Shown here piece after piece: positions 3,876 to 35,272 of a stretch of 40,452 bases of DNA. The notes beneath the pieces were generated by a model. It saw only the letters and a list, made by a program, of their open reading frames with translations, was not told the DNA's origin and ran no database searches. Position 1 is the first letter of the stretch. Every line of letters begins with the position of its first letter. Origin of the DNA: an uncultured Clostridia bacterium (GTDB lineage Bacteria; Bacillota; Clostridia; Oscillospirales; Ruminococcaceae); contig CANQLI010000012.1 of the NCBI GenBank assembly GCA_947624675.1, positions 1 to 40,452 on the forward strand. Direction: 5' to 3'. A program made the translations under genes and the position numbers.

Positions 3876-4244
3876 TTAAAATGTTGACACAGCGGCCTCC
3901 GTGATCCGCCATGTGTTTTCACTATGAGCCAGCGTCATTCGGATATACAGCCTCCATGTGTGGCGACCTCCGCCAAAAACTGCGGCATTTACAATGCTTT
4001 TTCCGTGCAGTGTCGCATTTTCCCCATGAATTTCTGTTTTTATCTCCTGATGAGCCGTGGAATAGTAGTTCAGAGTTCCATCTTCTACGGAGCGGATAAA
4101 CACTTCTTTGGATTGCCGCATACCCGTCATGTGGATCAACACGAAGCTGTCATCGAGGACCTCGGAAAGAAGCCTGCCGTCTTTCCGTACCATGCCGTCA
4201 TACATCTGCCGGTAACAGTTTTCTATCTTTTTCTGTTCGGTCAC
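3876..4244 (-). CDS. NTF2-like / SnoaL-type small protein
   Basis: About 122 residues with the pattern of nuclear-transport-factor-2-like proteins: an N-terminal helix (KKIENCYRQMYDGMVRKDGRLLSEVLDDSFVLIHMTG), then alternating strands ending HTWRLYIRMTLAHSENTWRITEAAVSTF. Such proteins form cone-shaped pockets and act as small enzymes or ligand binders; no catalytic residues can be assigned. Start choice: ATG codons at 4262 and 4259 have only a weak AAAGAAG upstream, whereas a GTG at 4244 has GGGAGG seven bases before it, so GTG is preferred. It is first in the leftward redox cluster. Confidence 0.7.
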   Translation of the reverse strand: MTEQKKIENCYRQMYDGMVRKDGRLLSEVLDDSFVLIHMTGMRQSKEVFIRSVEDGTLNYYSTAHQEIKTEIHGENATLHGKSIVNAAVFGGGRHTWRLYIRMTLAHSENTWRITEAAVSTF

Positions 4245-4348
4245 TGCTTCGCCTCCCATCATCTTCTTTACAATTCATATTGTACGGATTTTCGTTCCAA
4301 AGAGCAATTCGGATTTCGGGGCTTATCTATAAGTAAATGCTAATATGA

Positions 4349-4542: not shown

Positions 4543-4590
4543 ATCAATATTGCAAGATTAAATCTTGCGAAAATGAACGGAGGTAACGGT

Positions 4591-5520
4591 ATGAGCATCT
4601 ACGATTTCAAAATCAAAGCACAGGACGGAAGCGAGGTGGCACTTTCCGATTACAAAGGGAAAGTTCTTCTCATTGTTAACACGGCGACCGGGTGCGGATT
4701 TACACCGCAGTATGACGAGCTTCAAGACCTGTATGAGCTTCATCAGAAGGACGGGTTGGAGATCCTCGATTTCCCCTGCAATCAGTTCGGGGAGCAGGCT
4801 CCGGGCAGCGACGAGGAAATTCACAGCTTCTGCACCGGACGGTATGGCATCACCTTTCCGCAGCTCCCCGATGAGGGAACGGGAGAAGAGCTTTACCGCA
4901 AAATCCAGTCGGAAAAGCAGGCGCTCATCAAGGCAGGAAAAATTAAAAAGGAAAAGCCCCTGCCTGAAATCTCGGACGACGAAAAGCCGTTTGATATTCC
5001 CGAAAGCTGGAGGTGGGTGAGACTGGGGAGCCTTCTTGAAAAACTTGTTGATGGCACGCATAGAACCCCTAAATACACGCTTTCGGGTATACCGTTTGTA
5101 TCTGTTACAAATATGAGCAGCGGAAAATTAGACTTGTCAAATACAAAATTTATTTCTGAAGAAGAACATCAGGAGTTATGGAAAAGATGTAATCCAGAGC
5201 GGAATGATATACTTCTTTCAAAAGTCGGAACCACCGGCGTTCCTGCTATTGTAGATACAGATATACAATTCAGTCTTTTTGTCAGCGTTGCGCTGCTCAA
5301 ATTCAATAAACAGCTTTTAGATATTGATTTTCTTGTATATGCCATTTTGACGCCTGACTTTCAAAGGCAGTGTCAGGAACACACAAGAGGGATTGGCAAC
5401 AAAAACTGGGTCATTGTTGATATTGCAAATACGGTGTTTCCCCTCCCACCCCTCATCGAGCAGAAGCGCATTGTTGCAAAGCTTGAGGAACTGCTGCCGC
5501 TGTGTGAAAAATTAAAATGA
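4591..5520 (+). CDS. Chimera: glutathione peroxidase N-terminus fused to HsdS C-terminal half
   Basis: A 309-residue in-frame fusion. Residues 1-90 are a glutathione peroxidase: SIYDFKIKAQDGSEV, NTATGCGFTPQY with the peroxidatic Cys near residue 35, and FPCNQFGEQAPGSDEEI. At YGITFPQ the sequence switches to a Type I restriction specificity subunit: GTGEELYRKIQSEKQ, KPFDIPESWRWVRLGSL (central conserved helix and entry to a target-recognition domain), one recognition domain, then PLPPLIEQKRIVAKLEELLPLCEKL. The peroxidase has lost its C-terminal half, including the conserved Trp/Asn region, so peroxidase activity is unlikely. The HsdS part has one recognition domain and no hsdM or hsdR nearby. 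Start at 4591 follows ACGGAGG; an in-frame ATG at 4573 is less well placed. GPx and HsdS identities are secure; function of the hybrid is unknown. Confidence 0.85.
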   Translation: MSIYDFKIKAQDGSEVALSDYKGKVLLIVNTATGCGFTPQYDELQDLYELHQKDGLEILDFPCNQFGEQAPGSDEEIHSFCTGRYGITFPQLPDEGTGEELYRKIQSEKQALIKAGKIKKEKPLPEISDDEKPFDIPESWRWVRLGSLLEKLVDGTHRTPKYTLSGIPFVSVTNMSSGKLDLSNTKFISEEEHQELWKRCNPERNDILLSKVGTTGVPAIVDTDIQFSLFVSVALLKFNKQLLDIDFLVYAILTPDFQRQCQEHTRGIGNKNWVIVDIANTVFPLPPLIEQKRIVAKLEELLPLCEKLK

Positions 5521-6629: not shown

Positions 6630-9623
6630 ATGAAAATTGCGATTGTTCATTTAAGCGATTTCCATATTAACGCCGGAGAACGATTTTTATCACAAAAAAT
6701 AGAGGGCATTTTGTCAGCATTAAATATTCTTGGAAAAGTAGATGACTATATTGTTGTCTTTTCCGGAGATTTATCATATTCTGGACAGGTAAATGAATTC
6801 AAGAGTTCAAGATATTTGTTTGGAAAAATAATCAGTGGCATCAAGCAAAAGAACGACAATAAATTTGTCAACTTATTTATGGTTCCAGGAAATCACGACT
6901 TATGCCTTACTAAAAACGAACGTAATAGGAAAGATATACAGGTTCACTATGACAACGGAACAATTTCGGAATTGCTTCCGGCTGAAAAATCATATTTGGA
7001 GAACTATTATTTATACTCAAATGCTAACGGGAAAATACCGTATGATATTTTCTTGAACAAAAGATATTGCACTTTCGACGAATATAAAATGCAATTCAAC
7101 TTGATTAATACGGCACCGTTTTCGACTCTTCAGCCAGATGACAAAGAACTGCATTATTTCCCGGAAGATAAAATCAATTTGTTGTCACGATCTGCAGATA
7201 CAAATTTATGCATTACAATTATGCACCACAGTTATGAGTGGTTTAACTGGAATTACAAATCCAACTTAGAAAAGGCTATTATTGACAATTCTGAGTTGCT
7301 TTTATATGGTCACGATCATAGGGAACATACCACGTCATTATCTATTGATAATAGTTTAGATACGTGGATTTCGTCAGCGGGTGAGATGAAATTCTCCTCG
7401 CTCGATGCAGAAGATTCCTTTAATTCCATTGTAATTGATACTGAAACAAATTCCTTTGATGGATATGTTTTTAATTGGGATAAAAAAACACATATTTATA
7501 TACACAAACTTGTTGCATCTCAGAAAAGTTTGCAAAACCATTCGTCTAAACTTATGCCTTTACCCAGCTTTATAAAAGGCATTAAACAGGATAACTATAA
7601 TCAATCCGATGATTTTACTAAATATTTTGTATTTCCAAAGTTGGTATCAAAGTCTCAAAATGAATACAATAAAAACGAGATAGTCGCTAATGTCGAGGAA
7701 TTAACCGATTTGTTAAACGAAAAGAAGAAAATCATCATTAGTGGTGCAACAAACTCCGGCAAAACAACATTGTTAAAATACTTGTATTGCACATTAACAA
7801 ATAAAAAGATTCCATTATATTTAAGTGCAGATGCAAGACCAAATATAAAGGCACACAATTTTATTAAACATCTCTTTGAAGAAGAATACGGCGAAGATTC
7901 ATCTCTGTTTGAAAGATACCAACAGATGGAGCTGGATAAAAAAGTGTTAATTGTAGATGGCTGGGATTTACTAAATGCCAAAGGTCAAAATTCCATTATA
8001 CATAAAATCGAAGAATCATTTGGTTATGTAATAATTAGTGTTAGCAACTCTCGGACAAATATAGTAGACGAAATCAAAGGTGAACTTGATGAATCGACAC
8101 CATACTATGAGCTACACATCAAACCCTTCTTCACAGAAAAAAGAAATGAATTGGTTCGTAATATTTGTCTTCAAAAAAGCACATTTAATGACGACGCTGC
8201 AATAAATGTTAATCGATTAATTGATAGTCTTGTCCAGAATAATAGCGGATTGTTTTCCTTAAACCCTGCATTCATTGTTAGATATACAAATTGTTTTATT
8301 CAGGATCCATATCAAGATTATACTAAAGGAGAAGCGGTCTTTAGTAAAATTTTTGAGTTTGAGTTGAATCAATCGATAATTAAATTTGCTAAACGACAGG
8401 ACGCAGATGAGTTGTTCACGGCTTTTGAGGAAATAGCCGGCTATATGTATGCTAATAAAAAAGATGAACTTCCAGTCGAAGAAGTCCGAGCCATAATTGA
8501 TAGTTACAATAGTATTTATGGTGAACACGTTAATGTAAGAGATGTCATTGACATTGGTAAAAAAGCTAAAATATTACGAGAAACTGAGGAACTATCGGTA
8601 TACTTTCTTAACAAAAATCATTTGTCATATTTTATTGCCAAATATTTAATTAGAGCTTCACAAGGAGAACCGACAGATACAAGTGGTATTGAATATGCCT
8701 TAGAGAATATTTGCTTTGGAATAAATTCTGATATTGTGCTGTTTATTTCCTACATACTGAACAACACAAGAATTCTTGCTTCCATAAGCAACTATGCTGG
8801 TGAATTACTGGAACCTTGGGACGCACTTAGTTTCTCTGATAAAAACATATCAATAATTCACAATGTTCCATTGAAACAAATTAATCCTCCTTCGGAAGAA
8901 GAAAGGAAGAAATATGATGATACTAAAGAAAAATCAGAAGAAATAAACTATTCGGAAGACACCATCGAAGCAAAAGGTCTGTTTGATTACGATGACGGCG
9001 ATATTGATAGATACCAATATAGGCTTGTACGTGCAATAAAATATACTGAAATGATTTGTAAGGCACTTCCGGCTTTTCACAATACACTTAAGATTAGCCA
9101 GAAGAACGAATTGGTTGATTCTGTATATTTATATCCACGCAAAATTGTTTATGCCCTATTACGTCCGTTGGATATGAATATCAAAGACCTGTGTGGGGAT
9201 ATTATTGAATACGCTAAGCAGAACGAAAAAAAGAAAAAGGATGGCAGCGAATATACCGAAACTGATATTATGAAAATGTTTAATGATTCTGCTCGAGCTG
9301 TAATGCTCAGTATGTTCGACCATTTTTCTGAACTTGCTACAAGCCCAAAATCGTATGAATTGCTCATTAATAAAAAGGCTGAGGATATGAGTGAACATAT
9401 AGAAAGATTGCTGATAATCGAAAGTACAGGCAATACTGATTACCTGACAAAAGAAGCAGAATCATTACTTAAAGAATGCCAAGGAACAGAGTATGATACA
9501 ATGATACGGTTAGTGGTTCGTAAACATTTATTAACTCATAGGGAACTGCCGTTCAGTAAGAAACAACAAGTAGTTGATAGAATCTTTGGACAAGGGTATA
9601 GAAAATATTTCCTTATGAGTTAA
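6630..9623 (+). CDS. Metallophosphoesterase-STAND-like NTPase (candidate antiphage protein)
   Basis: 997 residues. N-terminal calcineurin-like phosphoesterase: LSDFHI, FSGDLSYSG, MVPGNHDL, IMHHSYEW and YGHDHREH (about residue 227), so all five metal-binding motifs are present and the domain should be active. A P-loop NTPase follows: GATNSGKTTLL (Walker A, residues 372-382) and KVLIVDGWDLL (Walker B). The remaining ~500 residues are helix-rich with no motif I recognise, as expected for a sensor region. This effector + NTPase + long helical tail order is that of STAND defence proteins such as Avs, but with a phosphoesterase effector. AAAAGGAG precedes the ATG. AT-rich and unlike the GC-rich DNA to its left. 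Defence role is inference from architecture and neighbours. Confidence 0.8.
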   Translation: MKIAIVHLSDFHINAGERFLSQKIEGILSALNILGKVDDYIVVFSGDLSYSGQVNEFKSSRYLFGKIISGIKQKNDNKFVNLFMVPGNHDLCLTKNERNRKDIQVHYDNGTISELLPAEKSYLENYYLYSNANGKIPYDIFLNKRYCTFDEYKMQFNLINTAPFSTLQPDDKELHYFPEDKINLLSRSADTNLCITIMHHSYEWFNWNYKSNLEKAIIDNSELLLYGHDHREHTTSLSIDNSLDTWISSAGEMKFSSLDAEDSFNSIVIDTETNSFDGYVFNWDKKTHIYIHKLVASQKSLQNHSSKLMPLPSFIKGIKQDNYNQSDDFTKYFVFPKLVSKSQNEYNKNEIVANVEELTDLLNEKKKIIISGATNSGKTTLLKYLYCTLTNKKIPLYLSADARPNIKAHNFIKHLFEEEYGEDSSLFERYQQMELDKKVLIVDGWDLLNAKGQNSIIHKIEESFGYVIISVSNSRTNIVDEIKGELDESTPYYELHIKPFFTEKRNELVRNICLQKSTFNDDAAINVNRLIDSLVQNNSGLFSLNPAFIVRYTNCFIQDPYQDYTKGEAVFSKIFEFELNQSIIKFAKRQDADELFTAFEEIAGYMYANKKDELPVEEVRAIIDSYNSIYGEHVNVRDVIDIGKKAKILRETEELSVYFLNKNHLSYFIAKYLIRASQGEPTDTSGIEYALENICFGINSDIVLFISYILNNTRILASISNYAGELLEPWDALSFSDKNISIIHNVPLKQINPPSEEERKKYDDTKEKSEEINYSEDTIEAKGLFDYDDGDIDRYQYRLVRAIKYTEMICKALPAFHNTLKISQKNELVDSVYLYPRKIVYALLRPLDMNIKDLCGDIIEYAKQNEKKKKDGSEYTETDIMKMFNDSARAVMLSMFDHFSELATSPKSYELLINKKAEDMSEHIERLLIIESTGNTDYLTKEAESLLKECQGTEYDTMIRLVVRKHLLTHRELPFSKKQQVVDRIFGQGYRKYFLMS

Positions 9624-12785: not shown

Positions 12786-14066
12786 ATGATTTCATTTCGT
12801 ATTCTTCAGAAAAATAAAGCAACCGATATCTTACCGATTCTTTTCAAAATCTTACACTCTAATATGAGTTTGATTGCGCCAACCGGAAACACTTATGAAG
12901 ATGACTACAGATTATGGATTGATTCTGTTGCTCCGGCATTAAAAAAGGATGCAAGACAGATTATTTTGATTTATGATGATACTGAAATTATTGGATATTT
13001 TCAGTATTATGTCAACGCAACAACCTTTATGATGGAAGAAATTCAGTTTAATAAAGAGTATCAAGGCACGGGAGTGTTCCGTCAGCTATACTCCTATATT
13101 TTTGAGATCATTCCGAATGAAACACTTTATGTAGAAGCATACGCACATAAATCAAATCAGAAATCTCAAAGCATACTAAAGCACATAGGATTGCAAACCA
13201 TAGGTGAGAACAAAAACGGAAACATCTATCATTTTCGAGGCGATTGTTACGAAATGCTCAAAAAATACAATGCTCGAAAGAATGCGATTGAGAAAATGAC
13301 CTTTGAGATCAGCAACATTCTTTCCGAATGTTCTCCGTCAGTTTACCTTTATGGCTCAATTCCTTTGGATGATTTTCGTTTTGGTTGGAGTGATATTGAC
13401 ATCCTTGTATTGACAGATAAACAGATGTCCCAAAATCAGGCTAACAAGCTCGTGAAACTTCGTCAAACAATGCTTGAAAAGGATTCAGGCAATCTGTATT
13501 ATCGTCTGTTTGAGGGCGGTATGCTGACATTGGACGCTTTTATGTCGAAGTCCTCCGACAGAGTGGTCTACTGGGGTAGCAGAGGTGAAAGAATTACTGA
13601 TACATATGTATTTGACAGTTTCAGTATGGCTGAACTGATTGAAAGCGGTATTTTATTGAACGGTAGCGATGTCCGCAGCCAATTGAAATCACCGAGCTTC
13701 GTCGATTTGTATGCAGATGTGAAACGCCATTACGAAACCATAAGAGAATATGTAGATAAAACAGAACGCAATCTGTATTCCTTTGGATGGCTATTGGATA
13801 TAGCGCGATGCCTATACACGCTTAAAACAGGAAAAATAATTTCAAAAACTGCCGCAGGAGAGTGGGCTTTACGAAATAATTTATGTCCGGTTTCTGAAGC
13901 CCTTAAAATTGCTGTGAAGGTACGCAAAAATCCATTAGTATATAAGTACGAAAAGGAAATACTGGACTACGCACAAACGCTTGCAGAGTCGATACAACGC
14001 TTTGCCGATGTGCTTGAGAACGAATTGACATATGTAAAGGAGATGTGCAATAGATGCTCGGATTAA
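12786..14066 (+). CDS. GNAT acetyltransferase-nucleotidyltransferase fusion
   Basis: 426 residues in two domains. Residues 1-160 are a GNAT domain with the acetyl-CoA loop QGTGVFRQLY and the late HKSNQKSQSILKHIGL helix. From about 170 a polymerase-beta-type nucleotidyltransferase follows: YLYGSIPLDDFRFGWSDIDILVLTD has the GS and DxD catalytic signature (Asp about 203 and 205), and the C-terminal helices (RNLYSFGWLLDIARCLYTLKTGKIISKTAAGEWAL) resemble those of aminoglycoside adenylyltransferases of the AadA type. It could modify an aminoglycoside-like substrate with either group, but this is not proven. AAGGAGG precedes the ATG. First gene of a coupled four-gene operon. Confidence 0.8.
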   Translation: MISFRILQKNKATDILPILFKILHSNMSLIAPTGNTYEDDYRLWIDSVAPALKKDARQIILIYDDTEIIGYFQYYVNATTFMMEEIQFNKEYQGTGVFRQLYSYIFEIIPNETLYVEAYAHKSNQKSQSILKHIGLQTIGENKNGNIYHFRGDCYEMLKKYNARKNAIEKMTFEISNILSECSPSVYLYGSIPLDDFRFGWSDIDILVLTDKQMSQNQANKLVKLRQTMLEKDSGNLYYRLFEGGMLTLDAFMSKSSDRVVYWGSRGERITDTYVFDSFSMAELIESGILLNGSDVRSQLKSPSFVDLYADVKRHYETIREYVDKTERNLYSFGWLLDIARCLYTLKTGKIISKTAAGEWALRNNLCPVSEALKIAVKVRKNPLVYKYEKEILDYAQTLAESIQRFADVLENELTYVKEMCNRCSD

Positions 14067-25468: not shown

Positions 25469-26470
25469 ATGAACTACATAGGTTCAAAATATTCTTTGTT
25501 GGGCTTTATTAAAGAAACCATAGGAAATGTTACCGGGTATACAAATGGAGAAGGCCTTGTATTTGCCGATTTATTTGCCGGTACAGGAGTAGTCGGAGCA
25601 GCATATAAAGAAATGGGTTTCAGAGTCATTTCTAATGATATTCAGTATTACAGTTATGTAATAAATAAGCATTTAATTGAAAATGTCCCAATACTTGACA
25701 GTACTCTACTTAACTATTTAAATTCTTTAGACAATGTTAAAGGTTTTGTTTATAACAATTATTGTTCTGGTTCAGGGAGCGCTCGAAACTATTTTACGGA
25801 CGCAAATGGTCAAAAATGTGATGCTATCCGAACTAAACTTGAAGAATTGTATAAAAAACATGAAATAGATGATTCTATATATTTTTATTTTCTTGCAAGT
25901 CTTGTAAATTCTATTGACAAATATGCTAATACAGCTTCGGTTTATGGTGCTTTCTTAAAGCATGTAAAAAAATCAGCACAAAAGGACTTTGTACTTGAGC
26001 TTCTTCCAGTTATTTCGGGAATTAAAGGAAAGGTTTATAATAAGGATATAAACGTTCTTATAAAAGAAGTTCATGGTGATATTCTTTATCTTGATCCACC
26101 ATATAACACGCGACAATATTGCACAAATTATCATGTACTTGAAACAATTGCGAGATATGATAATCCTCAACTAAATGGTAAAACAGGTCTTAGAGATTAT
26201 ACTGAGCAGAAGAGTACTTTTTGTTCAAAGCAGACTGTTAGTAAGGCGTTCGATTATTTGATTTCTCACGCTGATTTTAAACACATATTTTTAAGCTATA
26301 ATAATGAAGGATTGATGAGTCTTGACACGATAAAAGCTATAATGTCAAAATATGGTAAGTATGCATGCTATACGATGAATTATCGACGCTTTAAAGCTGA
26401 TAAAAACGAAAATCGCCAAATAGCTGCAAACTCAACAACAGAGTATATACATTGCCTTATAAAGGAGTAA
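25469..26470 (+). CDS. DNA adenine methyltransferase, D12 class (Type II modification subunit 1)
   Basis: 333 residues. NYIGSKYSLLGFI and VFADLFAGTGVVGAAY are the N-terminal helix and SAM-binding motif I; DILYLDPPYNTRQY is motif IV with DPPY, as in N6-adenine methyltransferases of the D12 class. KGKTGLRDYTEQKS and HIFLSYNNEGL are further family motifs. It modifies host DNA against the linked nucleases. It ends 3 bp before the second methyltransferase gene; two methyltransferases suggest an asymmetric site, with each strand modified separately. Confidence 0.9.
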   Translation: MNYIGSKYSLLGFIKETIGNVTGYTNGEGLVFADLFAGTGVVGAAYKEMGFRVISNDIQYYSYVINKHLIENVPILDSTLLNYLNSLDNVKGFVYNNYCSGSGSARNYFTDANGQKCDAIRTKLEELYKKHEIDDSIYFYFLASLVNSIDKYANTASVYGAFLKHVKKSAQKDFVLELLPVISGIKGKVYNKDINVLIKEVHGDILYLDPPYNTRQYCTNYHVLETIARYDNPQLNGKTGLRDYTEQKSTFCSKQTVSKAFDYLISHADFKHIFLSYNNEGLMSLDTIKAIMSKYGKYACYTMNYRRFKADKNENRQIAANSTTEYIHCLIKE

Positions 26471-26473
26471 ACA

Positions 26474-27268
26474 GTGCCAAAGTTTAATGATGTAAATTTG
26501 AGCCGATGGAAGGATTATTCGGATATTTATACTGATTCGTTGTGGGTTATAGAAAAGCGTGACAATTCAGGAGCGCATTGTGGTAGCTATCACGGAAACT
26601 TTATTCCTCAGATTCCACATCAGTTATTTTTAAGATACACTAAAAAGGGAGATTGGATATTAGATCCTTTTATGGGTAGTGGGACCTCTCTGATAGAAGC
26701 CCAACGACTCGGACGAAATTCTGTTGGCATTGAATTACAGGAAGAAGTCGCTAAAGAGGCATATCAACGTATACTTTCCGAAAAAAATGATCTTTGCCAC
26801 GGAAGGGTTTGCGTCGATGATAGCAGAACGGCGGATATTAGCAGTATAATGAAAAAGGAAGGAATAGAAAAGTTTAAGTTTATAATTTTCCATCCACCGT
26901 ATTGGGATATAATTAAATTTTCTGAGGACCAAAATGATATTTCAAATTCAAAAACACTAAAATTATATCTTGATAATTTTGGAAAAGTAATTGATAACAC
27001 AACTCAACATCTTGAAATGAATAGATATTGTGCTGTTGTGATAGGAGATAAATTTGCAAATAGTGAAATCGTACCGCTTGGCTTCCATTGCATGAATTTG
27101 TTTTTAAATCGTGGCTTTAAAATGAAAGCGATTATTGTTAAAAACTTTGAAGACACAAAAGGGAAATCAAATCAACAAGCTATTTGGCGTTATCGTGCTC
27201 TTGCATCAGACTTCTATATATTTAAGCATGAGTATATTTTTATATTTAAAAAGGTGAGGTTGTTTTAG
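26474..27268 (+). CDS. DNA methyltransferase (N6-adenine/N4-cytosine type, modification subunit 2)
   Basis: 264 residues. Motif I is DWILDPFMGSGTSLIEAQRLG with SAM-binding GxG, then VGIEL, then the catalytic motif IV, FIIFHPPYW. The order I-IV with a following variable part resembles gamma-type amino-methyltransferases; PPYW fits N6A or N4C. A GTG start at 26474 with AAAGGAG six bases before it is clear; the site overlaps the stop of subunit 1, so translation is coupled. The stop codon lies in the loop of a terminator. Confidence 0.87.
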   Translation: MPKFNDVNLSRWKDYSDIYTDSLWVIEKRDNSGAHCGSYHGNFIPQIPHQLFLRYTKKGDWILDPFMGSGTSLIEAQRLGRNSVGIELQEEVAKEAYQRILSEKNDLCHGRVCVDDSRTADISSIMKKEGIEKFKFIIFHPPYWDIIKFSEDQNDISNSKTLKLYLDNFGKVIDNTTQHLEMNRYCAVVIGDKFANSEIVPLGFHCMNLFLNRGFKMKAIIVKNFEDTKGKSNQQAIWRYRALASDFYIFKHEYIFIFKKVRLF

Positions 27269-27282
27269 CTACTTCACCTTTT
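27249..27282. terminator. Convergent terminator between methyltransferase and nuclease genes
   Basis: AAAAGGTGA (27249-27257) pairs with TCACCTTTT (27274-27282). Symmetric A/T ends let it act in both directions, and it separates the rightward methyltransferases from the leftward nucleases. Confidence 0.75.
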
Positions 27283-27315
27283 GATTTCTAAAATATACTT
27301 CTTAATCTTAAATGT

Positions 27316-28485
27316 TTAAACAATTCGTTTAAATGCGATTCCATTATTTTCAATGTCAAAGCCAATATACTCTAATGGTTCAATAATGACATTTTTATGT
27401 AATGGCGGATAACTGTTGCTAAAAGTTTTACAACTTTTTATGAATGTTTGATCGGCAGTGCTTTTAGCCAATACGCAAGGAATTATATGAATAACCACAT
27501 TCTTCTTAAAAGATGTATAATTTGGAACCATATAATCAATTACCCACCTGATATACCACGGAATCTGGTTGTTTAAAATCTCCATAAAAGGCTTAACACA
27601 CTTTAATTCAACAACTCTTATATACACATTTTGATCATTTCTCTGTATAGTCATAATATCTATGCGTTGCATTCCTACTCCGCACGATACTTCATTCCCA
27701 ATCCAACAAGTTAGATTGGGAAATTTTATCAGTAGACTGTTAAGGGGCTTTTTGTCAAAGTTCTGCATAATGTATGCCTGTAGGTGAGCTTCAAACGCAT
27801 TCCCATTTTTACATTTAAAAAACATTCTATGACTTATATCAACACTATCTGTCCTTCCGGTGTACGTATGTGATGAGTTATTATATATTATTTTAAAAGA
27901 ATTATCATCAAATGAGAATTGCTTTGATTTTTTTAACAAATAAGAATTATTTAAATTATTTATATAATACAATTTTTTAACAAGGCTGTTAAATTCATAC
28001 TTTGTTATCATCGTGCAACCACGGTTTCCTTTTAATTTACGATAAATTAGACTCCAACACATTTGATATGGACGCTTTACTTTATTTAGACTATCAAGGT
28101 AGTCGTGTTCTGAAACCCCATAGGCAAAGACTGTATCCGGTTCTATCCTAATTCTGAAGGTTAGTGGTTTGCATAGTTTATGTATAAGAAAATTATTTTC
28201 ATCGTTTTCATCAAAAAAGGCGGTGGTAGCTACTTTAAAAACCCCATAAAATCTCCCTGATTTTCCATTGTATGATTGTAGATAAAAAATTATTTTATCT
28301 CCTACTCTTATTCTTGATATATCTGCTATCATTCCTACGAGGTTACGTTCAGTTGTTGCATTGATTTTAACGTCAGGATTTAATATGAATGGAACTGTTT
28401 TATCTTTTGCCCCTGTTCCCGCAAACATATACTCAAGATGATATTTAAAGGTGGTTTTGTCAACAATAAAGACGTGATAGTTCAT
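27316..28485 (-). CDS. Putative PD-(D/E)xK restriction nuclease or specificity protein
   Basis: 389 residues. N-terminal 130 residues look like an EVE/PUA-type reader: MNYHVFIVDKTTFKYHLE, VGDKIIFYLQ, GRFYGVFKVATT. The C-terminal half has MQRIDIMTIQ...YIRVVELKCVKP, where Asp and Glu-x-Lys fit a PD-(D/E)xK nuclease core. So one protein may combine a DNA base reader with a nuclease domain. It starts 3 bp after the HNH gene and is likely its operon partner. Its exact role (second nuclease, specificity factor, or modified-DNA nuclease) is unresolved. Confidence 0.65.
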   Translation of the reverse strand: MNYHVFIVDKTTFKYHLEYMFAGTGAKDKTVPFILNPDVKINATTERNLVGMIADISRIRVGDKIIFYLQSYNGKSGRFYGVFKVATTAFFDENDENNFLIHKLCKPLTFRIRIEPDTVFAYGVSEHDYLDSLNKVKRPYQMCWSLIYRKLKGNRGCTMITKYEFNSLVKKLYYINNLNNSYLLKKSKQFSFDDNSFKIIYNNSSHTYTGRTDSVDISHRMFFKCKNGNAFEAHLQAYIMQNFDKKPLNSLLIKFPNLTCWIGNEVSCGVGMQRIDIMTIQRNDQNVYIRVVELKCVKPFMEILNNQIPWYIRWVIDYMVPNYTSFKKNVVIHIIPCVLAKSTADQTFIKSCKTFSNSYPPLHKNVIIEPLEYIGFDIENNGIAFKRIV

Positions 28486-28488
28486 AAA

Positions 28489-29106
28489 TTATGTTTTCCT
28501 TTCTTCCAAATGGCGTCTAAATTCCAATGGATCGTAACAAAAACAACCTTCACAACCATTTTCTTCACCATTATGTGTTTTTCCACCTTTGTAAAACGAA
28601 ATTGGATATCCAAGTTGTTTTGCGTCAAAACGTTTACCTGTTTTTTTACAGCTTTTGCAAAATTGTCGCTTTGCATCATTTGCTGCTTTACTTAAAGGTT
28701 GAAAATCGGAAATTTTTTGCTCTTGGTTTTTCATAACTCTGTCTTCATTCTTACGACCGTTTTTGTGATCACATTCAGGATTGGATGTTCCCAGGATAAC
28801 ACAACGCTTTGAGCATATTTCACGCTTTATGTCCGGACGAATGTGTTGTGAATATTTACCGTTGTTGAATCCAACCGTTCTTATTTCGTCTACTTTGTTT
28901 CCGGGAGTAATGGATCTGTTTCTTTCTATAAGATACTTTTTTCCAAATGATCCATCATCTCGTGACCATCCTGCACCGTTTAATAATTGTAATCCTTGAT
29001 ATTTTCCGACAAATTCGTCAACGGATACCCATCGGCTACAACCAGTTTCATCAATTTGTGCTAATTCTTCAAACAGTTCAATTTTCGTCATTTTTCTCTT
29101 AGTCAT
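28489..29106 (-). CDS. HNH-type Type II restriction endonuclease
   Basis: 205 residues. The N-terminal half (GCSRWVSVDEFVGKYQGLQLLNGAGWSRDDGSFGKKYLIERNR) is followed by CVILGTSNPECDHKNGRKND-type HNH motif (here PECDHKNGRKNEDR), FQPLSKAANDAKRQFCKSCKKTGKR with the zinc-like Cys pairs, and CEGCFCYDP near the end. This is the beta-beta-alpha-metal nuclease layout of several Type II enzymes with paired methyltransferases. ATG overlaps the stop of the controller gene by 4 bp (ATGA), so the two are coupled. Recognition site unknown. Confidence 0.82.
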   Translation of the reverse strand: MTKRKMTKIELFEELAQIDETGCSRWVSVDEFVGKYQGLQLLNGAGWSRDDGSFGKKYLIERNRSITPGNKVDEIRTVGFNNGKYSQHIRPDIKREICSKRCVILGTSNPECDHKNGRKNEDRVMKNQEQKISDFQPLSKAANDAKRQFCKSCKKTGKRFDAKQLGYPISFYKGGKTHNGEENGCEGCFCYDPLEFRRHLEERKT

Positions 29107-29327
29107 TGTTTTGTTCCTTCATTATCAATAAATAATTTGTATATTTCGACTTCCAACGCATCGGCAATACGTTGAATATTTTCCAAAGAAATACTCCTTT
29201 TAAATCTTTCAATATCGCTAATGTATGTCCTGTGTAAATTACTGATTTCTGCAAGCTTTTCTTGCGAAATTCCTTTCATATTGCGATATTTTCTAACATT
29301 CATACCAAAAACTTTAATTATATCCAT
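29103..29327 (-). CDS. XRE-type controller (C) protein of the R-M system
   Basis: 74 residues, the usual size of restriction-modification controller proteins. The helix-turn-helix is GISQEKLAEISNLHRTYISDIERFKRSISL. C proteins bind their own promoter and delay nuclease expression until methylation is complete. It is the first gene of the leftward unit with the HNH nuclease and the PD-(D/E)xK protein. Direct repeats CAA(A/T)AAGTC at 29366-29374 and 29381-29389 upstream are a possible binding site. Confidence 0.85.
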   Translation of the reverse strand: MDIIKVFGMNVRKYRNMKGISQEKLAEISNLHRTYISDIERFKRSISLENIQRIADALEVEIYKLFIDNEGTKQ

Positions 29328-30253: not shown

Positions 30254-30826
30254 ATGAAGAAAAATTTAGGTGTTGTACCGGCAGTGTATCCGATGCCTGT
30301 TTTAATGGTTGCTGCGTATGACGAAAACTCAAAGGTAAATGTGATGAATGCCGCGTGGGGTATGATCTGTGCTATGGATAAAATAGCGCTCTTTATTGAT
30401 GAAGATCATAAGACCACACAGAATATCCTGAAAACAAAAGCGTTTACTGTGAGTATCGCTGACAAGGAGCATATGGATGTTGCTGACTTTTTCGGTATTG
30501 CAACAGGAAATAAAATGACAGATAAGTTTGAGCGCACAGGTTATCATGCGGTCAAGAGTGAGTTTGTAAATGCACCTGTCGTTGAGGAATTTCCCGTTGT
30601 AATGGAGTGTGAGCTGGTTGAGGTAGTTAACACTGATAATATGTATGCAGTAGTCGGAAAGATATTAAATGTCGGCGCTGATGAGGATGTATTGTCAGAA
30701 GGTGGAAAAATAGACCCTGAAAAGCTGAACGCTCTTATTTTTGATCAATACCAGTCCGGATATTATGTTTCCGGTGAGAAAGTGGGAAAAGCTTGGAATG
30801 CAGGCGCAGGTCTGATGAAAAAGTAG
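30254..30826 (+). CDS. Flavin reductase-like FMN-binding protein
   Basis: 190 residues of the FMN-binding split-barrel type: VPAVYPMPVLMVAAYDENSKVNVMNAAWG at the N-terminus, KTTQNILKTKAFTVSIADKEHMDVADFFGI in the middle and EFPVVMECELVEVV with VVGKILNVGADEDVL. Such proteins bind FMN and either reduce flavin or act as small redox enzymes. AAGGAGG precedes the ATG. It stands alone between a decayed gene and the invertible segment; terminator follows. Confidence 0.9.
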   Translation: MKKNLGVVPAVYPMPVLMVAAYDENSKVNVMNAAWGMICAMDKIALFIDEDHKTTQNILKTKAFTVSIADKEHMDVADFFGIATGNKMTDKFERTGYHAVKSEFVNAPVVEEFPVVMECELVEVVNTDNMYAVVGKILNVGADEDVLSEGGKIDPEKLNALIFDQYQSGYYVSGEKVGKAWNAGAGLMKK

Positions 30827-30865
30827 TTTATTGATTATTCCCCAATGTTGAGTTGATAATATTTT

Positions 30866-30902
30866 AACCGCTTGAACTTTTAAAAGTTTAAGCGGTTTTT
30901 TG
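30866..30902. terminator. Terminator of flavin reductase, bidirectional
   Basis: AACCGCTT-G-AACTTTTA pairs with TAAAAGTT-T-AAGCGGTT (30866-30897), followed by TTTTTTG. Being AT-rich at both ends it can also stop leftward transcription emerging from the invertible segment. Confidence 0.85.
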
Positions 30903-31033
30903 TTAATACGATATCAAAACATTTTATAAAAAAAGCAAATAATTTTTAATTGCTAAAAATAACATTATAATGACAAAATTCGACAGACTTCTCATAAATT
31001 CTGCGTTATTCTGAAATAACAGATATTGCAATG

Positions 31034-31059
31034 TTCGCAAATTATGCTACTTTGTGAAA
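31034..31059 (+). repeat. Left inverted repeat (IRL) of invertible segment
   Basis: 26 bp, beginning TTCGCAAATT and ending TTTGTGAAA. Its exact reverse complement is at 32398-32423. No match outside the 26 bases on either side, so the boundaries are clear. Confidence 0.93.
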
Positions 31060-31125
31060 CGACCGCAACACTGTGAAAAAACAAGGGCTTTTATCGGTCA
31101 TGGATATTTTGACGGCTCAAAGTTG

Positions 31126-32235
31126 CTAAGCTATATTGAGCCTTTCAACATACCTTTTTTTCGCCTCAATAGAAGAATGAACATATCTGTTAAGAGTAAT
31201 GTTTACATTTGTATGACCGAGAAGTTCGCTGACTGCCTTTATGTCAAAGCCCTTTTCTATACACAGAGTTGCATAAGTGTGTCTTAGCAGATGAAAATTA
31301 ACTTCTCTTATGCCGCAGGCTTTAAGCACGGCCTTGAATCGGTATTGCATAGTTCGAGGTTCAACAGGCTTTTTAGTACCGGAAAGAATAAAGCTGTTTT
31401 GATCTTTTTTATTTTCCCCCAGTATCTTTAGTACAAACTCCGGTAATGGTATATCGCGCACCGAAGCTGTACTTTTGGGATCGCCCAGGTAAAGCATTGT
31501 TTTGTTAATACTGCCCGAGTTATCTGTTATGCGCTGAATGGTTTTTTTGACATGTACAGTTCCGTTTTCAAGGTCGATATCTCCCCATTTTAACGCGCAT
31601 ACTTCACCGATACGAAGCCCACTGTACATTGTAATAAGTATGCCGAGATTGCCGCAATTTAGATTATCAAGCAGATAATTTTTAAGCTTTAAGCGTTCTG
31701 AGTCATTTAAAACAGGTATATTTTTTCTTTCGTATTTAGGAATAAAAACATTCTTTATAGGATTAGACAGATCATATTTATACTCTGCATACTTTGAAAT
31801 GGACTTAAGTGTAGATAAAATATCCCGAACCATTTTAACCGATAAACTTCCAACGCCGTTTGATTTTCCGTAGGCAAGTTCATACTCAACAAATTCGTTT
31901 ATTTTAGCGGTGTCTATATCGGAATAGCTTATGTCCATAAAATACGGTATTATGTGTTTTGTGACTATTCTTTCGTAACAACAGTAGCTGGACTGTTTTA
32001 CCCTTAGCTTTATTGAGCTTAGCCATTCTAATGACAATTCCTTAAGACTTTTTCGACAGATGCTTTCCGAACCATTCGTGTACCTATACGCATCAAGCAT
32101 TTTTTGTTTAAGCTCTTTTAGTGTTCGTGCATAAAAATACTGATATTTTAGTTTTCCCTTGTCGTCCCTGTCAATGGGGATACGGCCTTCATAGCGTCCA
32201 TCCTTTCGTTTATAAATATTCATAGTACTCCTCAT
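31126..32235 (-). CDS. Tyrosine recombinase (site-specific invertase candidate)
   Basis: 369 residues in the Tn916-Int layout: an AP2-like N-terminal arm-binding segment (MNIYKRKDGRYEGRIPIDRDDKG), a SAM-like core-binding domain (about 60-165), and a catalytic domain with GLRIGE (Arg), HLLRH (His, Arg), a late GHTNVNITLNRYVH with the final His and nucleophile Tyr. The active site looks intact. AAGGAGG precedes the ATG at 32235; an in-frame ATG at 32223 also has a site (GAGGAG). It lies between perfect 26-bp inverted repeats with no other mobile-element gene, so it probably inverts its own segment. Leftward promoter: 32351-32379. Confidence 0.92.
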   Translation of the reverse strand: MRSTMNIYKRKDGRYEGRIPIDRDDKGKLKYQYFYARTLKELKQKMLDAYRYTNGSESICRKSLKELSLEWLSSIKLRVKQSSYCCYERIVTKHIIPYFMDISYSDIDTAKINEFVEYELAYGKSNGVGSLSVKMVRDILSTLKSISKYAEYKYDLSNPIKNVFIPKYERKNIPVLNDSERLKLKNYLLDNLNCGNLGILITMYSGLRIGEVCALKWGDIDLENGTVHVKKTIQRITDNSGSINKTMLYLGDPKSTASVRDIPLPEFVLKILGENKKDQNSFILSGTKKPVEPRTMQYRFKAVLKACGIREVNFHLLRHTYATLCIEKGFDIKAVSELLGHTNVNITLNRYVHSSIEAKKRYVERLNIA

Positions 32236-32263
32236 AAATATAACCTCCTTGTTTGACTGAAAT

Positions 32264-32294
32264 TTTGACGGCTAAATAATTTTTTATTTGACGG
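32264..32294 (+). promoter_or_regulatory. Candidate LytTR-type regulator site: two TTTGACGG repeats
   Basis: TTTGACGG occurs at 32264-32271 and 32287-32294, in the same orientation, 23 bp apart, about 18 bp upstream of the -35 of the outward promoter. LytTR regulators typically bind two direct half-sites about two helical turns apart upstream of -35. A third copy is at 31109-31116 inside the left end. Binding is inferred. Confidence 0.45.
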
Positions 32295-32312
32295 AGTTGT
32301 GAGTAAATCAAC

Positions 32313-32341
32313 TTTACAAATAAAAAAACTTGTGCTATACT
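32313..32341 (+). promoter_or_regulatory. Outward promoter inside the invertible segment
   Basis: TTTACA (32313-32318), exactly 17 bp, TATACT (32336-32341), pointing right through the inverted repeat at 32398 toward the agr-like operon (start 32474). This is the promoter expected to switch. Confidence 0.75.
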
Positions 32342-32350
32342 TTAGTTGAT

Positions 32351-32379
32351 ATTCTACCAAATTATTTAGATTTATACAA
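32351..32379 (-). promoter_or_regulatory. Recombinase promoter
   Basis: Minus strand TTGTAT (32374-32379), 17-bp spacer, TAGAAT (32351-32356), reading left into the recombinase gene. It is divergent from the outward promoter, with only about 10 bp between the two -10 boxes. Confidence 0.55.
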
Positions 32380-32397
32380 AAAGTATTTTTTATTGCC

Positions 32398-32423
32398 TTT
32401 CACAAAGTAGCATAATTTGCGAA
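32398..32423 (-). repeat. Right inverted repeat (IRR) of invertible segment
   Basis: Exact reverse complement of 31034-31059, 51 bp upstream of the LytTR regulator start codon. A degenerate direct copy of its core (AAAAAGTAGTATATTTTT) follows at 32432-32449. Confidence 0.93.
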
Positions 32424-32446
32424 AAAGCATTAAAAAGTAGTATATT
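32417..32446 (+). promoter_or_regulatory. Possible second, fixed promoter overlapping the right repeat
   Basis: TTGCGA (32417-32422), 18-bp spacer, TATATT (32441-32446). Weaker than the one inside. Its -35 is in the repeat and so would be restored by inversion; if active, it would give the operon a basal, orientation-independent transcription. Confidence 0.35.
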
Positions 32447-32473
32447 TTTATTATGTCTTCGGAGGATTTAAAT

Positions 32474-33187
32474 ATGCTTAGAGTTGCAATATGTGATGAT
32501 GATCAGAATTTTTGTTATAGTCTTGAAAGTATTATTCTTGAATATATGGAGTACATTGATGAATTGGTAGATGTATCGGCATATCATTCGGGAGAAAAAC
32601 TATTAAGAGATATGAGGAATAAGACGGGGTATGATATTATTTTCCTCGACATAGAAATGAATGGAATAAGCGGTATTGATGTAGGAATTGCGATAAGAAA
32701 AGAGTTAAACTTGTTTTTACCTCAAATTATTTATGTAACATCGCATGAATCATACGCCTTACAGCTGTTTCAGAATCAGCCCTTTGGATTTGTATCTAAG
32801 CCGGTAGTGGCGCAAAAGATACGAGATCTCATAAAGGAATACAAACGCCAGTTTGACAATGCAAATGTATATTTCGAGTTTAGTTTGGGAAAAACCATAA
32901 GCAAGATTGCGGTAAAGGACATACTGTATGTAAACAGTGTAACAAGAAAGCTTATGATACATACCGATACAGAGGTATTTGAGACATACAAAAAGCTTGA
33001 TGATTTTTGTAAACTTGGTATAAGCAAACATTTTGTGCGTATACATAAATCTTTTGCTGTTAATAATATGCACATTTCAAGTTATCACTACGATCGTATA
33101 AAAGTATCTAACGGTGAGGAATTGGTTATAAGCCGAAATTACCGTAAGCAGGTAAGAGCAAAATTGATCAAGCTGGAACATCAATAA
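32474..33187 (+). CDS. LytTR-family response regulator (AgrA-like)
   Basis: 237 residues. Receiver domain: AICDDDQNF with acidic pocket, IIFLDIEMNG containing the phospho-acceptor Asp, VTSHESYAL and SKPVV with the conserved Lys. C-terminal LytTR DNA-binding domain: SLGKTISKIAVKDILYVNSV, KHFVRIHKSFAVNNMHI, VVISRNYRKQ-type end (LVISRNYRKQ). It would be phosphorylated by the adjacent kinase and activate the operon. Start at 32474 has GGAGG eight bases upstream. First gene of the operon, 51 bp from the invertible segment. Confidence 0.93.
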   Translation: MLRVAICDDDQNFCYSLESIILEYMEYIDELVDVSAYHSGEKLLRDMRNKTGYDIIFLDIEMNGISGIDVGIAIRKELNLFLPQIIYVTSHESYALQLFQNQPFGFVSKPVVAQKIRDLIKEYKRQFDNANVYFEFSLGKTISKIAVKDILYVNSVTRKLMIHTDTEVFETYKKLDDFCKLGISKHFVRIHKSFAVNNMHISSYHYDRIKVSNGEELVISRNYRKQVRAKLIKLEHQ

Positions 33188-33198
33188 AGGGTGATAAT

Positions 33199-34434
33199 AT
33201 GGAAAGCGTTATTTACTTGTCTTGGAATCTGTTGCGGGTATATTCCATATACATACTGATAGATGTTTTTTTAAAACGAAAAGAAATAAAAAGTGTCTTT
33301 CTGTTAATAGCTTATATTGCATTTTTTGCAATAAATTCGGTTGCTTATTTATGCTTTGATTCTTATACGGTAAACATAGCATCTAATGTAATCCCTATAT
33401 TTTTAATAACTTTTTTGTATCAGTCTAAAATTTGGAAAAAAATATTTGTAACGATTCTTATTTATGCTATTTGTATGTTCTGGGAAAGTGTATTGTATGC
33501 ATTGTTTAATGCCATGCATATTGATAATTTATTAATTATTGGTGGATTTACCGAATCTATAATGCTATTCTTAACTGCCTTGTTTTTAAAAACACATTTA
33601 AAGCAAAAATTTAGACTGGAAGCTCATATTAAGGCGTTTTATTATTTTATGCTCATATTTATACCCGTTGGAAGCATAATAGTAGGTTATTTAACAATGC
33701 TACAATGGAATATAAAGTCACTCATTATAGGCATTATATTGTTATCAATAAACTTTTTAATTTTTTATTTGTTTGACGAGATTATAAAATCATATATGCG
33801 ACAGCAAGAGGCTGAAAGTATAAAACAGAATAAGCTTTATTTTCAGCATGAGCTTGAGGTAATGGAAAAATCACAGCTTAAAATGGATTGTCTGAGACAT
33901 GATATGAAAAATCATTTTTATAGGATCGAGTCTTATATAAAAGAAAACAATCTTAACGAATTGTTAGATTATGTTGAACAGGGAAAACAATCCCTGATAA
34001 CAGGAAAAGAGTATGCATTTACGGGAAATAAAAGTATAGATTGTATTTTAAATTATAAATTTGACGAGGCGATTAAAAATAATATAACCTTTTCGATAAA
34101 TGCGACGGTTCCTAATGTTACAAAAATCAATTCGTTTGATCTTAATACAATTTTAGGAAATATCTTAGATAACGCCATTGAAGCGGCAACAAAATCAGCT
34201 GATAAAAAAATCGATGTGTCTATAAATTATAATAAAAATACTTTAACTATCGTAATTATAAATTCTTATGACGGAAAGATAAATAAAAATTTTGCAACAA
34301 CGAAAGAAAATCCGTCAGGGCATGGCTTAGGCTTAAAAAGCGTACAAATAACAGCGGAAAAATATAACGGTCTGGTGGATTTCAGTTACAATAAAATGTA
34401 TTTTACAACAAAAATCCTATTATATGATGAATAA
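33199..34434 (+). CDS. AgrC-like sensor histidine kinase
   Basis: 411 residues. The N-terminal half is about six hydrophobic segments (residues 1-195), which serve as the peptide-sensing part in AgrC. The cytoplasmic part has a DHp-like helix with DCLRHDMKNHF (phosphorylated His), then a GHKL ATPase: ILGNILDNAIEAA (N box), SGHGLGLKSVQ (G2 box). Length and order fit the AgrC/ComD group. It is 11 bp downstream of the response regulator gene, so they are co-transcribed, and it should sense the peptide encoded just downstream. Confidence 0.93.
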   Translation: MESVIYLSWNLLRVYSIYILIDVFLKRKEIKSVFLLIAYIAFFAINSVAYLCFDSYTVNIASNVIPIFLITFLYQSKIWKKIFVTILIYAICMFWESVLYALFNAMHIDNLLIIGGFTESIMLFLTALFLKTHLKQKFRLEAHIKAFYYFMLIFIPVGSIIVGYLTMLQWNIKSLIIGIILLSINFLIFYLFDEIIKSYMRQQEAESIKQNKLYFQHELEVMEKSQLKMDCLRHDMKNHFYRIESYIKENNLNELLDYVEQGKQSLITGKEYAFTGNKSIDCILNYKFDEAIKNNITFSINATVPNVTKINSFDLNTILGNILDNAIEAATKSADKKIDVSINYNKNTLTIVIINSYDGKINKNFATTKENPSGHGLGLKSVQITAEKYNGLVDFSYNKMYFTTKILLYDE

Positions 34435-34452
34435 CTTTAGTTATTTTTAACA

Positions 34453-34479
34453 GGTTTTTACGAATTAAAAACCATTTTT
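34453..34479 (+). terminator. AT-rich hairpin between kinase and peptide genes
   Basis: GGTTTTT (34453-34459), loop ACGAATT, AAAAACC (34467-34473), followed by ATTTTTG. A weak terminator or attenuator that could separate the regulator genes from the signal genes. Confidence 0.45.
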
Positions 34480-34547
34480 GTCAAATTGTAGAAATAACTC
34501 CCTTTTGTGGCTATACTGTATATAGTAACAAAAAGGGAGGTTTTTTT

Positions 34548-34691
34548 ATGAAAAAGTTTTTGAAAAAGTATGGACATGTTTTTGCTGCATTGGCATTGGT
34601 GTTTACAACTTTAACAGTTAACTCGGCTTGTTCATTTGTTATTCATCAAGAAAAGCTACCCGAAGGCGCAAAAACATTGCGTAAGTTCTGA
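34548..34691 (+). CDS. Cyclic-lactone-type autoinducer prepeptide (AgrD-like)
   Basis: 47 residues: an amphipathic N-terminal leader (MKKFLKKYGHVFAALALVFT), core NSACSFVIHQ, and a charged tail EKLPEGAKTLRKF. A Cys followed by hydrophobic residues and a Pro-Glu acidic tail is the hallmark of clostridial cyclic lactone autoinducer peptides. The mature signal is likely a thiolactone ring based on CSFVI with a short N-terminal tail. GGGAGG lies seven bases before the ATG; the stop overlaps the AgrB start (TGATG). The exact ring end is inferred. Confidence 0.88.
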   Translation: MKKFLKKYGHVFAALALVFTTLTVNSACSFVIHQEKLPEGAKTLRKF

Positions 34692-35272
34692 TGTTTAATA
34701 AAATATCAGAAAGAATCACACAGCTTTTAGTCAAACAGGAAACGATAACAGCTTCACAAAAGGAATTATATCGTTACGGCTTTAATCAAGGCTTTACGAT
34801 ATTATTCAATGTAATAACAACATTAGTAATAGGTTGTGTATTCGGTATGGTGATCCAAAGCATAGTCTTCTTAATTTCGTACATACCGTTAAGGAGCTAT
34901 GCTGGAGGATACCATGCAAAAACACCTTGGAGATGTTATTTTGTTTCGGTGGTTTTAATGTACGTGGTTTTGTCGATAATAAAAATGATGCCACACTCGG
35001 TAATTGCGTATAGTTTAATTATTGGATTAGGCAGTATGGTTTGTGTAGCCTTGGCACCGATAGAGGATAAGAACAAGCCTCTTGACAAAACAGAACAAGT
35101 GGTTTACAAAAAGCGAACATACATAGTGTTATTCCTGGAATTATGTGTTGCACTACTTAGTTACTTTTATTTTAGAAGTGTATTTTATGTGATCTGCATA
35201 TCGGTATTCACAGAGAGTGTAATGCTTGTTTTGGGAAAGGTAAAGAACATTTTTATTGAAGCACGGGCATAA
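34691..35272 (+). CDS. AgrB-like peptide-processing membrane protease
   Basis: 193 residues, with several membrane segments. The catalytic His and Cys of AgrB appear in YAGGYHAKTPWRCYF. It cuts the AgrD-like prepeptide at its C-terminus and cyclises it. Residues 1-40 are charged and amphipathic (NKISERITQLLVKQETIT) as in the family. Its ATG overlaps the prepeptide stop by one base, so both are made in step. It closes the operon. Confidence 0.92.
   Translation: MFNKISERITQLLVKQETITASQKELYRYGFNQGFTILFNVITTLVIGCVFGMVIQSIVFLISYIPLRSYAGGYHAKTPWRCYFVSVVLMYVVLSIIKMMPHSVIAYSLIIGLGSMVCVALAPIEDKNKPLDKTEQVVYKKRTYIVLFLELCVALLSYFYFRSVFYVICISVFTESVMLVLGKVKNIFIEARA

Follow-up and report, generated by a model that had tools for sequence, protein, structure and literature searches.

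We analyzed a 40,452-nucleotide (nt) stretch of DNA from an uncultured Clostridia bacterium of the family Ruminococcaceae (the window: contig C12 of genome G000, an assembly of 2.08 Mb in 49 contigs) and found that positions 31033-32424 are probably an invertible promoter switch (switch A) in front of an agr quorum-sensing system, with a recombinase that most likely also acts on two further switches of the same genome, B and C. A promoter-bearing invertible segment before agr is by far the best reading of this locus. The core idea of the original prediction, an inverting promoter that gates agr, is very likely right, and its scope was understated: we now see three switches and a recombinase clade tied to lytTR and agr genes, with locus A itself found only in the ON orientation, that is, with its promoter directed at lytTR.

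The candidate invertible segment and the agr genes at locus A

The segment is delimited by perfect 26-bp inverted repeats (31034-31059 and 32398-32423, with a spacing of 1338 nt), a pair far beyond chance (expectation in the window about 7e-7). As had been predicted, and as repeat and profile searches bear out, the repeats enclose a recombinase gene; it is the only gene between them, reads leftward and encodes a tyrosine recombinase of 369 amino acids (aa), closest among proteins of solved structure to an Int protein (6en0 and its kin; phmmer 4.4e-14). The features of the segment and its flanks are listed here.

31033..31059, no strand: left recombination site, a 27-bp palindromic site of which 26 bp repeat exactly
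32398..32424, no strand: right recombination site, a 27-bp palindromic site
31126..32235, minus strand: tyrosine recombinase gene inside the segment, 369 aa; PF00589 Phage_integrase 1.1e-26, and Phage_int_SAM_3
32313..32341, plus strand: putative invertible outward promoter TTTACA-17-TATACT; consensus match, near-invariant across switches
31103..31120, no strand: TTTTGACGGCT motif 3' of the recombinase stop, from the repeat search; possible accessory binding site
32259..32276, no strand: TTTTGACGGCT motif 5' of the recombinase start, from the repeat search and switch comparison
32417..32446, plus strand: possible fixed promoter TTGCGA-18-TATATT overlapping the right site, weak; 9 of 12 consensus matches
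30866..30897, plus strand: terminator hairpin of the left neighbour, with a T-run on the plus strand only

Paired inverted repeats around a short segment and an outward promoter inside it are the marks of an inverton, and locus A carries both, the promoter as judged from sequence and conservation only. This promoter, already noted in the original prediction, lies just inside the right repeat, reads rightward and has TG before its -10 element. Since promoter-like sites number 12 in 30700-32600 against 7.8 +/- 2.8 in shuffles, a consensus match alone is weak evidence; we accept the promoter because six switches (A three times, B twice, C once) share the block CTTTACAAATAAAAAA-CTTGTG-TATACT almost without change while their surroundings diverge. 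CCGTCA flanks the recombinase gene on both sides in 16 of 21 loci, and TGACGG/CCGTCA is present in all three complete small switches described below; that the motif is an accessory binding site is a guess.

The genes to the right of the segment are the following.

32453..33187, plus strand: LytTR response regulator; Response_reg PF00072 and LytTR PF04397; likely start at 32474 behind GGAGG (by eye)
33199..34434, plus strand: AgrC-like GHKL sensor kinase; PF14501 3.6e-25
34489..34548, plus strand: T-run hairpin that overlaps the ribosome site of agrD, its apical part containing TATACT; z -5.2
34548..34691, plus strand: AgrD-like peptide precursor, 47 aa; TIGR04223 38.7 bits, cut-off 19
34691..35272, plus strand: AgrB peptidase; PF04647 6.6e-41, 140.1 bits, cut-off 23

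Profile matches confirm the predicted genes, and all parts of an agr system are found together: AgrB, AgrD, an AgrC-type membrane sensor with a GHKL kinase, and a LytTR regulator. Against the NCBIfam staphylococcal AgrC model the kinase scores only 35.5 bits (cut-off 500). Downstream of agrB lie a gene of the GH5 cellulase family and a leucine-rich-repeat (LRR) gene with a dockerin domain.

The hairpin between agrC and agrD bears on what the switch would drive. It folds better than shuffles do, with z values of -5.2 in the window, -7.2 at L064 and a less clear -2.5 at L065 (loci of the related genomes G008 and G014), and terminator hairpins also stand between agrC and agrD at L008, L009 and L012 and, by eye, at L105. 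Transcripts initiated at the apical TATACT would not be stopped by the hairpin. With agrD-agrB behind a terminator-like hairpin and provided with their own start signal, the switch would directly drive lytTR-agrC, that is, regulator and receptor, and we infer that agrDB is turned on by the regulator. Sites of LytTR-type regulators are direct repeats with a characteristic period, and we searched 11 regions for them (300 shuffles each, uncorrected). Such repeats were supported before the B output gene (0 and 5 of 300 shuffles as good) and before agrD of L009 (4) and L012 (0), and were weaker at A of G008 (9/300), C of G008 (21/300) and L008 (25/300). They were not significant before the window agrD (168 of 300 shuffles as good), nor supported at A of G014 (71/300), C of G000 (63/300) or C of G014 (47/300). 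A wider regulon of B-type repeats was not found in the three genomes, where mismatch-free matches occurred only at two B loci and the control pattern matched equally often or more overall.

In the mechanism that we propose, the enclosed recombinase would recombine the two 27-bp sites and flip 31033-32424. In the assembled, ON orientation the outward promoter would transcribe lytTR-agrC, whereas agrD-agrB, preceded by the hairpin and a start signal of their own, would be driven mainly by the activated regulator; the OFF orientation would remove receptor, regulator and feedback together. The original prediction had described OFF cells as deaf and mute. Muteness would come about through this loss of feedback rather than by direct silencing of agrD-agrB. 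Deafness is too simple a description: the receptor of A would indeed be gated, but two more receptors with similar sensors have switches of their own.

The proposed switches B and C and their receptors

We scanned for sites with the pattern TTTCRCAAA-N9-TTTGYGAAA, using the reversed pattern as control. In G000, six places with at most one mismatch form three pairs (A, B and C), against 0 for the control; at up to 3 mismatches sites are not enriched (22 versus 20), enrichment being confined to those with 0-1 mismatch. Each switch consists of paired 27-bp palindromic sites and its own lytTR-agrC, with the recombinase and agrDB present only at A. Switch B (contig C9) has 299 nt between its sites, lacks a recombinase and faces its lytTR-agrC, followed by an LRR-dockerin gene. 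Of the two sites of switch C, one forms the final 27 nt of C32 and the other the opening 27 nt of C34, with lytTR-agrC on one side and a GH5 gene on the other; we infer that these contigs belong together because they share a core and because G008 holds a complete C switch (L078). The promoter block at zero mismatches occurs in G000 at A and B only, which fits a C segment missing from the assembly. Where complete, the small switches B and C hold 299-324 nt between sites and no recombinase, and they adjoin genes for leucine-rich-repeat, dockerin or cellulase-like proteins.

The same arrangement recurs in the genus, for which 15 genomes were compared, G000 included. G008 and G014, which represent two sister species, have recombinases 83% identical to that of G000 and five sites each, against six in G000. 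Six of the other 12 genomes have one unpaired site match each and six have none; the match in G006 and G012 adjoins a recombinase of 63-65% identity, and G012 has an imperfect second arm. As expected of a master invertase, with like sites and one enzyme, G000 holds a single recombinase at E <= 1e-40 for three site pairs. The recombinase of A is the most likely candidate to act in trans on B and C, each with a near-identical promoter before its own lytTR-agrC.

In G000 the 9-bp cores of the A, B and C sites are distinct at 3 to 4 positions, and the two cores of a pair show 0 or 1 difference. Observed arm pairs showed 11 mismatches in this genus against a mean of 23.8 after re-pairing (2 of 720 re-pairings as low), 1 against 5.3 in the 60% clade (12/720) and 3 against 12.3 in the 50% clade (2/720), figures that serve as a guide only and weigh less for the proposed switches because the sets include related loci. 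Tyrosine recombinases generally require identity in the exchanged core, so the matched cores would reflect the need of a working switch, and the distinct cores would keep A, B and C from mixing.

To what would these switches listen? AgrB is encoded once each in G000 and G008, and G014 has one full and one partial copy (45.6 bits). With the B kinase as query, G000 and G014 each gave three strong matches, every one of them next to a switch site, and a few weaker ones (two in G000, three in G014; E 1e-14 to 1e-22); G008, in which the right side of the B switch is absent, gave two matches. Between A and B or C, sensor domains are 45-50% identical, kinase parts 20-32% and regulators 16-33%. Within a genome, the identity of B and C is 71-94% for roughly 900 nt from the start and 49-56% beyond that point, in a part where orthologues share 63-86%; this pattern points to sensor halves that are shared or were homogenised. 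An exchange strictly inside each genome is opposed by B of G014, which over most of the ~900 nt resembles C of G008 (77-86%) about as much as its own C, and support in the sensor tree is weak at inner forks (50-87), except for the split of A from B/C. B and C are named AgrC-like from sensor similarity and a GHKL domain; the B kinase matches no AgrC model in NCBIfam. A common ligand for the three receptors would be the simple reading. We tentatively consider, as a possibility somewhat short of even, that one AgrBD signal serves three AgrC paralogues with a common sensor and different kinase-regulator outputs, each receptor being switched independently through inversion by one shared recombinase. 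If so, a clonal population could be spread over as many as eight listening states, and its quorum response would hedge bets combinatorially over exported proteins that carry dockerins.

Orientation, relatives in other genera and alternative explanations

The promoter is directed at lytTR in the assembly of every complete switch, six in all (A in three genomes, B in G000 and G014, C in G008); in the remaining three of the nine (C of G000, B of G008, C of G014) the assembly breaks off at a site. In G000, C32 ends and C34 begins at a site; C2 of G014 also begins at one, and C29 of G008 begins 4 nt before a B site. The expectation for such contig ends, <=5 nt from a B or C site, is 0.014 (contig counts rounded), against these four. 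The best cause of the breaks is a graph fork from two orientations in the reads, because the same repeats left six switches unbroken, and the contig ends hint at both orientations of B or C among the reads. In G139, which belongs to a different genus, the lytTR-side flank is connected within a single contig, and over exactly 55 nt, to both ends of the segment, the pattern expected from two orientations. G139 has at least three lytTR/agr-linked switches of the recombinase clade with similar sites (L105, L107, L109), two of them with identical left flanks, and recombination may occur between its loci. Across species, comparison of loci shows both orientations.

Relatives of the recombinase at E <= 1e-90 occur in 15 of 247 sampled genomes of the family; an order-level search returned 2 of 394 genomes at E <= 1e-100 (G000 and G216), and viral contigs gave one pattern match and no relative. 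We built a tree of 45 recombinases, leaving out L013 (same record set as L012) and counting once each L006/L007, which are the same contigs as L064/L065, and L103, the same contig as L009. All 14 agr-labelled rows and 2 of the 3 lytTR-labelled ones fall into one clade of 21 (support 100/98); its five members with neither label are L011, L066, L067, L108 and L113. Labels came from tblastn with the window proteins on stretches of differing length, in which diverged agr genes may escape, and weak LytTR matches some kb from L017, L018, L069 and L073 were left unlabelled. By tblastn, no AgrB match lies beside the remaining 24 recombinases. A shuffle test of the agr label on the tree was uninformative (500/500), and clade content was used alone. 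Outside the genus, 14 clade loci in 10 genomes are linked to lytTR/agr (L008, L009, L010, L012, L013, L022, L104-L107 and L109-L112). The recombinase is in line with lytTR at all 14, and a TTTAC-/TATAAT-type promoter at the far end points away (12 read by script; L012 and L105, sites included, by eye); at L115, outside the clade, the promoter faces lytTR. A 16-nt pattern searched in 7 genomes of other genera gave pairs at the known loci, one unpaired match in G139 (C113), a single arm at C121 and none in G019. The pairing of this clade with lytTR/agr in several genera suggests a lasting strategy, not a single odd locus.

Other relatives have different surroundings. At L121 a related recombinase is enclosed by 181-nt inverted repeats (2668-2848 and 4080-4260) that take in what seems to be the 5' part of a gene for an exported protein; this may be a promoter choosing between two gene copies. 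At L066, L067, L108 and L114 related recombinases lie near genes that by eye resemble conjugation or mobilisation genes, and at L066 and L067 GH5 and LRR genes also adjoin the recombinase.

The original prediction also had the flipped promoter of locus A face a bidirectional terminator at the left end. We rejected this candidate: read leftward, the hairpin at 30866-30897 still folds (-14.5 kcal/mol) and is followed by AAAATATTATC, without a T-run, and terminator scans found no leftward terminator there. Other genera have a hairpin with a T-rich tail beyond the far site in 10 of 13 flanks, this genus in 0 of 8. A first scan (stems >= 6 pairs, loops up to 8) found 4 of 21 against 1.2 expected and missed large loops; the second, wider scan (stems >= 8, loops up to 16, a loose rule for the T-rich tail) found 10 of 21 against 0.7 in mononucleotide shuffles.

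Several observations weigh against the proposed switch, and we considered them together with the explanations that they favor. Locus A is complete and ON in three of three genomes, a flipped A is seen in none of them, and the site breaks fall at C, B and C of G000, G008 and G014. The switches could accordingly be real with only B and C varying, and A held ON in the genus as the source of recombinase and signal. Each genus, moreover, shows a single orientation only, which is compatible with fixed orientation and argues against free flipping at equal rates. We consider a fixed A unlikely, if a serious contender: its arms are exact repeats, the core change of G008 is present in both of its arms, and A, B and C have the same enzyme and nearly the same sites. 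As for that enzyme, only recombinases at E <= 1e-40 were listed, and a more distant one may be the enzyme for B and C.

Slightly less likely, the segment may flip while fixed promoters keep lytTR-agrC on, so that the switch modulates the level of expression or serves the recombinase. Two caveats of the original prediction speak for this and still stand. The promoter-like sequence over the right repeat does exist, as a weak candidate, and in the flipped state read-through from the recombinase would be possible because the minus strand has no terminator-like site between its stop and the left repeat. In the 60% clade, too, inspection by eye suggests a fixed promoter for lytTR, TTGATT-17-TATAAT, on the outer side of the right site. 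On the other hand, the flipping promoter is the most conserved stretch, and the leaders of B and C between site and ribosome site show, by eye, no conserved fixed promoter.

Contig ends can have other causes than inversion, and short repeats or a strain mixture in the assembly could have placed them on the sites; near-identical loci do exist in G139, where a second locus with an identical left flank also weakens the junction evidence. This seems improbable to us for the breaks at B and C, since six of nine switches with the same repeats were assembled unbroken and the contigs end at, or 4 nt from, the repeat limit. Finally, a mobile element beside agr by chance, as could be read from a tyrosine recombinase with terminal repeats, a variable left neighbour and some relatives near conjugative-looking genes, is very improbable given lytTR/agr neighbours in 16 of 21 clade rows and recombinase-free copies that retain sites and promoter before lytTR-agrC.

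The left neighbour of switch A is a flavin reductase gene in the window; in G008 and G014 (L064, L065) it is a gene that by eye resembles pyruvate phosphate dikinase. A little to the left of the switch, at 25469-29327, genes for a D12 N6-adenine methyltransferase, another DNA methylase and an ICEA-family protein, along with a weak EVE-domain match, form what appears to be a restriction-modification locus. Farther left, the 997-aa product of 6630-9623 is defence-like: it has a calcineurin-like phosphoesterase domain, and STAND/NACHT NTPase models match it weakly. Two single open reading frames each match two domains in succession: 4573-5520, in an unusual pairing, glutathione peroxidase and a type I restriction specificity (Methylase_S) domain, and 12786-14066 a GNAT acetyltransferase and an AadA_C-like nucleotidyltransferase region.

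Relation to known systems and implications

Locus A has the four components of agr as known from S. aureus, namely AgrB, AgrD, an AgrC-like kinase and a LytTR regulator. It differs in that the promoter of regulator and receptor would lie on an invertible segment, in the gene order lytTR-agrC-agrD-agrB and in the two extra receptor-regulator pairs without agrBD. In literature on DNA inversion, invertons, agr, LytTR and quorum sensing, covered by titles and the starts of abstracts, we found no report of an invertible agr promoter; supplementary tables and subscription papers, a 2019 survey of invertible promoters in gut bacteria among them, fall outside this scope and may list the locus type unremarked. 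The word 'quorum' is absent from the main text of PMC11892184, PMC10939037 and the review PMC11868660, as are LytT and AgrB from the main text of the first, whose supplement lies beyond that search.

Among the sources covered, the closest parallel is RecV of Clostridioides difficile, a tyrosine recombinase that inverts several promoter-type switches, including cmr upstream of the signal-transduction operon CmrRST, and that is needed for some switches and dispensable for others (PMC5903667, PMC8844915). The target there is CmrRST and not agr; several phase-variable loci of C. difficile belong to the agr network (PMC5903667), so that agr acts on phase-variable loci there, whereas here inversion would act on agr. 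Mpi of Bacteroides fragilis is likewise described as one master enzyme for many promoters, with at least thirteen regions including polysaccharide loci (PMC5903667), but it is a serine recombinase, in contrast to the tyrosine recombinase and receptor-regulator pairs found here. Tyrosine recombinase genes have also been linked to inverton groups of gut Clostridia (PMC11892184), a likeness to the present switches. Promoter inversion is a known mechanism; its use on an agr receptor and regulator would, judged from the literature covered, be new.

The combination of a site pair, a promoter and lytTR-agrC provides a simple signature for finding more cases in existing reads. Quorum sensing is usually treated as a decision common to all cells. 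If receptor and regulator are gated by reversible inversion, one clone would be split into heritable participants and non-participants, and genetically identical cells could differ in the signals they hear and send, which would bear on the balance between signalling and non-participation.

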